Virus record (IMG/VR): IMGVR_UViG_3300025929_000053
Coordinates: 1-20,809 of that record
Direction: 5' to 3' (one strand)
Origin: a virus
Length of the DNA: 20,809 nt
Shown here: positions 6,189 through 9,400 of the stretch, one piece after another
Position numbering within the stretch: the first letter of the stretch is position 1
Layout: each line of letters opens with the position of its first letter
Notes under the pieces: model-generated
What the model saw: the letters and a program-made list of their open reading frames with translations, nothing else
Told to the model about the DNA's origin: nothing
The model's database searches: none
Program-made: the position numbers and the translations under genes

Positions 6189-6210
6189 AGCTACTAATAA
6201 GGATTGAATC

Positions 6211-6399
6211 ATGATCAACGCAACAGTCTTTGCTACATGCGTGCGTGCAACCGCTGCCGTGGCAACGGGCAGTCGCATTATCCGCGCTGTTCGCAGTTGG
6301 TTTCATCTTCTACCCGCTCCCGTGTGCAATCCGCTAGGCGGATTCGCGAAGCTCGCGGATTACATCGCGGTAGCGTCATCGCTATCGCCTCCTAAGTGA
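6211..6399 (+). CDS. 62-codon ORF, possible regulatory leader peptide
   Basis: AAGGA (6199-6203) stands 7 bases before ATG 6211, so it is a well-formed start; a TTG at 6204 in another frame is less well placed. The peptide is Ala-rich and basic (ATVFATCVRATAAVATGSR, then IIRAVRSWFHLLP) and resembles nothing I recognise. It stops at 6397-6399, only 11 bases before the start of the 2144-aa gene. Its last 11 codons run through hairpins that mask the ribosome binding site of that gene. It may be a real small protein, a leader whose translation controls the next gene, or spurious with the segment acting only as structured RNA. Confidence 0.45.
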   Translation: MINATVFATCVRATAAVATGSRIIRAVRSWFHLLPAPVCNPLGGFAKLADYIAVASSLSPPK

Positions 6400-6407
6400 G
6401 GCGGTAG
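6367..6407 (+). promoter_or_regulatory. Mutually exclusive hairpins masking the RBS of the giant gene
   Basis: Three arms. Arm 1 GCGGTAGCG (6367-6375) pairs with CGCTATCGC (6380-6388), 9 bp with one G-T pair, loop TCAT. Alternatively CTATCGCCTC (6382-6391) pairs with GAGGCGGTAG (6398-6407), 10 bp with one G-T pair, loop CTAAGT. The two stems share bases 6382-6388, so only one can form. The second stem buries GAGG (6398-6401), the Shine-Dalgarno of ATG 6411; the first leaves it free. Arms 1 and 3 share the direct repeat GCGGTAG (6367-6373, 6401-6407). This is the layout of a translational attenuator, with the 62-codon ORF passing through it. No function has been shown; the structures are read by eye. 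Confidence 0.5.
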
Positions 6408-6410
6408 GCG

Positions 6411-9400
6411 ATGGCAACTGTTTCAGCTTATGTCGGCACGGGCGGTTCTTCCGGTACCGGCAGCAAAAGCACCGCTTGGACTAACCTAACCAATGCCGTA
6501 GGTTCGACCACCGGTACCTTTGCTTCATGGTCTTCTACCCAGCGATCAGAAATTGGCACTTGGACTGGCGGCTCATTTGGGTTGTCGGTTCCTGCTGGTT
6601 CTACAATTAACTCTGTTACCGTCCAGGTAGCTCACAAAGAATCAACCACTGGCACGACCATTTCGTCGGTTACCGGTCAGCTATTTATCGGCTCTACGGC
6701 AGTTGGTACAGCCCAGTCCTTTACCCCGCTAACGACTACTGAGCGTACAGATAGTTTTGTGGTATCCAGCGGTGTTCTTGATACGGATATCCCGAATCTA
6801 GCTGTTCAAGTCGTATGTGCTCGGGCTAACTCAACTACTTCTGCTGGTGAGTCTATTGACTGGTGCCAGATAACCGTAGATTATACTCCACCTGCGACTA
6901 TCGCTACGCCCGCCGTAATAGCATCAACTACTTCCATTCCTACCCCGACCATTACTACGGTAGATCCAGGTGGCTGGAGCGTTGTCCAGTCGGCCAGTAA
7001 TGCAGCGGCTAGCGGGACTCCTTCCGTCACGTTTGCTACTAAAAATCTTTCCAGTGGAACTGTTCTGCTGGCCTATGTCAACATCTGGCACGGCTCTGCT
7101 AGCGCGGTCAGTGACGGCAATGGGAACAGCTTTACCAAGCTGCCCTTCTCTTCTGCGGGTAGTTCTACCGAACTGACGGTATGGGCGCTGGCTACGCCAG
7201 CGGGTGATGTGGGCACTAAGCCTACGATCTCCGTTACTAGTTCCGCCTCGTCTTACTGGGCAGTTCTTGTTCAGGAAGTGTCCGGAATCAAAACGTCCCT
7301 TGACGGGACGGCTGGCACTGCGAGCGGCAGCACAACCGCGAACCCGTCGTATTCCAGCACGGCAGTTAATGAGTACCTGGTTACAGTAGAAGCGGATAAC
7401 CAGTCTGCCACCAGTACGCCGACGCTGAACAACCCTAGCGGCTGGACACTGGACCCGGCTAACTGCGGTGGTAACGCATTCGTTACCGTTAATGTCGCTT
7501 ACAAGAAAAGCACAGGCGGCGCGGAATCGGACGGGTGGACCGGACCGGGGTCGGACACTGAAACCGCTATGGTGGCGTTCCAGTTGGCTGCGTCTACCAC
7601 GTCAGCGGCGGTAACCCCCAGCGCGATTACATCTACGACTAGCTTTCCAGTTCCCGCTGTAACGGGAAACACTAGCGTTTCGGTGAGCCCTAGTGTTGTT
7701 GCAGCTACTACTACTATTCCCGCACCTCCCTTGGTAGGTGCCGGGGTTCCGTACATCACAGGGGTAACGTCCTCTACCAGCTCGCAGGCTGGCTATTTCA
7801 TCGATAACACCGGAACACCCCAACTATGGGTGTGTGCTCAGCCGTGGGGTTTGCCGTCTAACGCGGGCAAATACAACGGAACTACCGGTGGAACCTGGCA
7901 ACAGGATATTGACAACTTCATAACGACGCGAGCAGGCCAGGGTGTCAACATGATCCTGGTCTACCCGATTTCCAACCTCGCTAACGGCGGTGCCTTCGAC
8001 AACGGGAATACCTGGGATAATGTCCCGCCGTTTAACACCGGGCAAGACCCGTCTTCCGGCCTGAATAATACCTTCTGGACCCGGATTGACTACCTGCTCA
8101 ACAGTGCGCTGAACAACGGCATGGCGTCGTTTATCAATATCGACATAACCTATAACGCGGGTACAGGCCAGTGCTTCTCAGGCTGGACAACCACCCAATG
8201 GCAGCAGTTCGGTACAGCGCTCGGCACCAGGTATAAGAATCAGCCGGGTTTCTCTTGGAACTTCGGGGACGACACGTACCCGACTACGTACGACTCCTTT
8301 TACGACGCATTCCTGACCGGGCTGTCATCGGCGGGTGATTCACACCCGATCTCGGCACAGTGGGAGGGTGAATACACCAGCCGGTACGAGACTGACAATA
8401 ACCTAAAGTCCACGTGGGGAACAACGCACTCCACCTATAACTACGTTTACACGTACAACTGTAGTTACTGGTGTGTCGAGTACGCCTATGGTGAGGTTGC
8501 TAACCAGGCGGCGACTACCCTTTTGCCGGTAGTGTGGGGTAACGGATATTACTACGCGGGCGGCAGCACTTATAGTTCTACCGCTGACCGGGCATGGCGA
8601 CAAGAGATATGGTGGAGTCTTTCATCCGGTGCGCGTGGAATTGTCACAGAAAGCAATCAGCGGCTTTGGTCTTCCAGCGCTCCCGGATCAGCCGCAACCC
8701 AGTGGTCGTTTGTTAATAGCCTGAAAAAGATCATTACCACGCACAATTCATGGGTGGGGTGGAACCGGCTGCTGCCTGACCTATCGTCCTCGTTTGTAAC
8801 ATCTGGGCGGGGTACTCGTGCGTCTGGGCTGGTTTCCGGTGGTTCTGCTACGCCGTATGAGCCAGCCTTTACCAACTCCTACGTTACAGCCAGTATCACC
8901 CCCGAGGGTGATCTTGCAGTCTGTTACCTTCCCAATCACACGACCATTACCGTAAACACTGCGTTGTTGAGGTCCGGATGGACCGCATCATGGATTGACC
9001 CTATTAATGGGACTGCTACCGATGCCGGTACCAGCGGTACGTATAATTCCACCACCAAGGGAACCAACAGTCAGGGTGACCCAGACTGGGCGCTGGTTTT
9101 CCAGGCCCCAACTTCGACACCCGCAAACGTTACCCCTGCGGTAGTGGCAGCAACTTCTAGCATTCCTGCGCCGACTGTTACAGCAGTATCTAATGCTTCT
9201 GTAGCTCCTACGGTTATTGGCGCGACTAGTAACATCCTGAGCCCAGTTCTACATACAGGCTCTACGCTGGCTCCAGCCACAATTTCGGGTGAGGCGACTA
9301 TTCCGCTGACAACGGAATCTACGGGTTCTACTCTTGCTCCACCAGTAGTAACAGCTAGGGGATCGATTTCTACCCCGGCGATCGTTACCGGGGATGTAAT

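Follow-up and report, generated by a model that had tools for sequence, protein, structure and literature searches.

A predicted hairpin over the start of a giant phage structural gene and its probable translational coupling to a short leader ORF

This study provided computational evidence that the ribosome-binding site and the start codon of a giant structural gene in a virus record are buried together in a stable predicted hairpin, and that a 62-codon leader ORF runs into this hairpin and ends at its loop. The best explanation appears to be that the hairpin enforces translational coupling between the leader and the giant gene, and we assign this a probability of about 0.62. The window, namely the whole stretch of DNA analysed (20,809 nucleotides), is a 20.8-kb virus record with a structural gene module. 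Sequence and computation directly give the ORFs and the hairpin, together with its predicted stability and the geometry relating them; the features are as follows.

2-1240: HK97-type capsid gene, identified by phage matches
3835-6177: gene of a 780-aa Ig-like protein
6199-6203, + strand: Shine-Dalgarno (SD) sequence AAGGA of the leader ORF, with 7 nt spacing to the ATG at 6211
6211-6399, + strand: 62-codon leader ORF, with an ATG start and the stop TGA at 6397-6399
6375-6415, + strand: main sequestering hairpin, with 5' arm 6375-6391, loop 6392-6397, 3' arm 6398-6415, and a bulge at 6407
6398-6401, + strand: GAGG, the SD sequence of the giant gene, lying in the hairpin's 3' arm and overlapping the leader stop codon
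6411-12845, + strand: giant gene, 2144 aa, repetitive Ig-like and fibre-type, with its start codon within the hairpin
from 12845: head-completion-like gene
from 16376: tape measure gene, assigned by length and position

Comparison of the capsid sequence pointed to prophages and viral contigs from actinobacteria (Streptomyces and allied) as relatives. On the + strand between 5800 and 6800, no intrinsic terminator and no sigma-70 promoter were found, and no Rfam covariance model of riboswitches or leaders matched within the window. Position 6411 is the sole credible start of the giant gene: upstream, its frame is closed by a TAG at 6405-6407, and the first in-frame alternative beyond it, a TTG at codon 58, lacks an SD sequence. 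The same TAG, just ahead of the AUG, rules out a frameshift fusion of the leader and the giant gene. The giant protein gave weak Pfam matches to Collagen_bind_2 (residues 831-897, weak but above the cutoff) and PKD-like domains, contains an Ala-Thr-x-x-Ile-Pro-x-Pro type motif repeated many times, and was matched by sequence to no solved structure; the gene is probably a fibre gene.

Folding energies were predicted with ViennaRNA at 37 C. When the segment 6190-6450 was folded, the hairpin at 6375-6415 appeared with 17 base pairs and one bulge, at -26.9 kcal/mol alone, burying both the GAGG at 6398-6401 and the AUG at 6411 and placing the leader stop at its loop, 11 nt ahead of that AUG. The pair probabilities of the main stem in full context were predicted to be 0.98-0.9998. 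Its stability ranked first among the 41,538 windows of 41 nt on both strands, and of 33 dinucleotide-shuffled versions of the + strand, one reached the same stability in its best 41-nt window. The cost of opening the region from SD to AUG at 6411 was 19.8 kcal/mol, the highest among 278 ATGs tested, and ranged from 3 to 11 kcal/mol at the other genes of the window. An earlier note on this DNA had proposed a hairpin at 6382-6407 that buries the GAGG; it is present (-15.3 kcal/mol) and forms the inner part of the larger stem. The observation is confirmed as real, and is stronger and larger than first stated. From these predictions, the hairpin would be expected to form in vivo.

The leader ORF was also recovered as the earlier note had described it, with its own ribosome site and 11 nt before the giant gene. 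Its start region is accessible (opening cost 3.4 kcal/mol), and its frame is the best of six by codon use (-0.03 versus -0.09 to -0.39 per codon). The codon score exceeds 98.7% of off-frame windows but is lower than 98% of real gene windows, and a 62-codon frame stays open in 13% of base-shuffled sequences. No homologue of the leader peptide was found in viral contigs, phage records, fetched loci, or family libraries. The leader ORF may be short, young, or constrained in sequence, and its sequence and the computed accessibility of its start suggest that it is translated. Two small hairpins, AATCCGC/GCGGATT and CGCGA/TCGCG, lie back to back within the ORF at 6325-6365, and the leader RNA is thus rich in inverted repeats.

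To model the ribosome, the downstream RNA was refolded outside a ribosome footprint set at each leader codon. In this footprint model, the opening cost of the giant start remained at 16-27 kcal/mol until the ribosome was within about ten codons of the leader stop, then dropped to 11, 7, 6, 3, and 2 kcal/mol at the last leader codons. Since the cost falls only near the leader end, the geometry fits coupling by a finishing ribosome and not an erm-type stall further upstream. Based on this evidence, the following mechanism may be proposed. On the transcript of the structural genes, the hairpin would hide the SD and AUG of the giant gene and bar free 30S subunits, while ribosomes would load at the accessible leader start and translate its 62 codons. 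A ribosome reaching the last codons and the stop would cover the 5' arm and release the 3' arm with the SD and AUG, whereupon the terminating ribosome or a new 30S subunit could initiate the giant gene. The output of giant protein would then equal the leader initiation rate multiplied by the coupling efficiency.

Coupling of this kind is recognised by a downstream start sequestered in RNA structure, an upstream ORF running into that structure and ending near the downstream start, and the freeing of that start by a ribosome at the ORF end. Here, the SD and AUG are predicted to lie in a stem costing about 20 kcal/mol to open, the leader TGA lies at the loop with an 11-nt gap, and the modelled cost is 2-3 kcal/mol when the P site holds the last sense codon or the stop. 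The functional coupling that we infer is supported by a hairpin positioned exactly over the SD and AUG, by a leader that has an SD and an accessible start and whose frame scores best by codon use, and by the analogous hairpins at fibre and tape-measure starts of relatives described below. Against it, the arrangement is known from one sequence, the leader and hairpin being found nowhere else in the sequences searched, and the leader codon use falls below that of nearly all real gene windows.

The control type is probably an already known one, translational coupling, rather than a sensing switch. The 'RNA unfolding' model of translational coupling is established, with phage f1 VII-IX and MS2 coat-lysis as examples (review PMC12548453). 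As in our case, the downstream start in those pairs is sequestered in RNA structure and released by ribosomes on the upstream ORF (PMC12548453), whereas the window has a short, seemingly dedicated leader, a stop codon in the loop, and a 6.4-kb gene, probably for a fibre, in a DNA phage. In the Gifsy-1 prophage pair orf45-anrP, translation of a small ORF likewise drives the downstream gene by coupling while RNA structure holds that gene off, but a trans-acting RNA, IsrK, opens the start of the small ORF, and stop and start overlap as AUGA (PMC4825925); here, the leader start is accessible, and 11 nt separate stop and start. The designed element synTCE also places a strong hairpin around the second ribosome-binding site, unwound by ribosomes on the first ORF, but with a short stem and an overlapping stop-start (PMC11602170), in contrast to the natural 17-bp stem, loop stop, and 11-nt gap of the window. 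The best-coupling spacing between stop and start in that synthetic element is -1 to 5 nt (PMC11602170), and the spacing of 11 nt here is longer.

The rival that survives best, although we hold it to be unlikely, is that the structure arose by chance and has little effect, with kinetic folding or other ribosome traffic permitting enough initiation and the leader being a decaying or unrelated small gene. Of the 1222 gene starts called in relatives, about 1% are at least as costly to open after adjustment for GC, some of them at unremarkable genes, and this agrees with a chance origin, as does the frequency with which such a frame stays open in shuffled sequences. The combined rarity argues otherwise, since the best hairpin of the window, itself of a level reached in one shuffle out of 33, would have had to fall exactly over one of about 17 gene starts.

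Slightly less probable is a real hairpin with another purpose, such as a processing site for RNase III or another enzyme, a pause site, or a DNA inverted repeat serving as a protein site or module boundary, the ORF being incidental. The weak codon signal of the leader fits this reading, and so does the lack of the region in relatives, as expected of a module boundary. The location of the hairpin exactly on the start site speaks against it. Further, no U-run follows the hairpin, which therefore is not an intrinsic terminator, and its two G-U pairs make it a better RNA stem than DNA palindrome; the giant gene would in any case still need to escape from a block of 20 kcal/mol.

The earlier note had interpreted the leader as control by mutually exclusive hairpins, in which a direct repeat, GCGGTAG, lets arms 1 and 3 compete for arm 2. 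The repeat is indeed found at 6367-6373 and 6401-6407, and the rival hairpin of arms 1 and 2 exists:

6367-6388, + strand: minor competing hairpin, -13.9 kcal/mol, predicted as a transient co-transcriptional intermediate only

The rival hairpin had been thought to leave the ribosome-binding site open. Its pairs have an equilibrium probability of 0.0002-0.0005 in full context, and imposing it takes 4.6 kcal/mol, after which the giant start is still closed, at an opening cost of 15.2 kcal/mol. It was seen only in partial transcripts ending before nucleotide ~6406, and it is ordinary for the window, in which fifteen 22-nt windows on the + strand reach -13.9. This hairpin may slow the formation of the main stem, according to these predictions, rather than serve as a stable open state. 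In ermC leader attenuation, there are four arms and an inducible stall. The window resembles ermC in having a short leader ORF ahead of a sequestered ribosome-binding site, and differs in that neither the four arms nor the stall is seen and the alternative pairings are not balanced; no stall signal, inducer, or ligand was evident in the leader, with no known stall peptide recognised by eye and no family match. The anatomy gives good support to translation of the giant gene that depends on the leader through a sequestering hairpin, and the two comparably stable states of an erm-type switch are not supported. An erm-type attenuator, in which arms 1:2 and 2:3 alternate and the state depends on whether the ribosome stalls, or how fast it moves, in the leader, is very improbable: despite the three arms with their repeat, the earlier formation of 1:2 during transcription, and the Pro-Pro codons directly before the leader stop, the equilibrium lies strongly with 2:3 (~0.99 versus ~0.0004), a ribosome over arm 1 alone leaves 2:3 closed, and the Pro-Pro codons are perhaps a mere by-product of the CCUCC required for pairing with the SD.

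The search for relatives with the same gene pair yielded no copy of the leader or hairpin in viral contigs, phages, genome contigs, or fetched loci in which pairing could be compared. The N-terminus of the giant protein had no match in viral contigs or phages, the whole giant protein none in genome contigs, and the upstream 780-aa gene none in viral contigs; the 3'-arm sequence is present in 65 viral contigs, none with the same hairpin. Neither of the closest relatives, L001 (MCP 74%) and L014 (99% over downstream genes), covers the region: they stop short of it or start beyond it. Several syntenic loci span the interval from capsid to head completion; none has the leader, and the gene before the fibre differs.

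The fibre starts of relatives are nonetheless often buried, at 12-15 kcal/mol in 7 of 8 (about five of them independent), whereas 81 gene starts gave a median of 6.2. At two of them, L115 (4030-4084) and L108 (5340-5400), the upstream UAA lies in a hairpin loop and the SD GGGAGG in the 3' arm. Swapping arms between the two weakens both (-18.9/-17.8 native versus -10.9/-15.6), a suggestive compensation that, with two distinct sequences only, is not proof of covariation. These hairpins are analogous to that of the window but non-homologous.

Across the same 1222 gene starts, the GC-adjusted opening cost peaks for products of 700-1000 aa, many of which are tape-measure genes with the N-terminus SDTSLVFNL. 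Nine such tape-measure starts carry strong stems that bury the SD, with arms that have changed in sequence and yet still pair.

L136, 15615-15660: tape-measure hairpin
L160, 15468-15513: tape-measure hairpin
L174, 15496-15541: tape-measure hairpin
L017, 15495-15540: tape-measure hairpin
L139, 6321-6366: tape-measure hairpin
L162, 15362-15407: tape-measure hairpin
L154, 15516-15561: tape-measure hairpin
L167, 15471-15516: tape-measure hairpin
L144, 9837-9882: tape-measure hairpin

Native arms of these nine stems pair at -25.6 versus -20.8 kcal/mol for swapped arms (permutation 1e-5, a value inflated by relatedness). In all nine, 24-40 nt separate the stop of the ORF ahead from the tape-measure start, and this stop lies at the 5' foot of the stem; in most tape-measure loci without a stem, the separation is about 6-10 nt. 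The difference hints that the stem is retained where stop and start are apart. A wider and tentative reading, to which we give a rather low probability, is that phages and prophages of the actinobacterial lineage have repeatedly, and independently in sequence, locked the starts of the longest of their structural genes, those for fibre and tape measure, by hairpins that open only when ribosomes complete the ORF ahead. The window would then be an extreme example in which the leader ORF is a dedicated one, and such locking would mean that costly or stoichiometry-critical proteins are never made out of step.

The seemingly dedicated leader ahead of a giant phage gene merits attention, as do the parallel hairpins in relatives. 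If the coupling is true, a tiny leader ORF gates a structural protein of 2144 residues, which would be made only through coupled translation, and this would offer a simple, testable rule for setting structural protein ratios in phages without separate promoters. The analogous fibre and tape-measure hairpins in relatives would turn such gating into a general design feature overlooked by gene callers and annotation.
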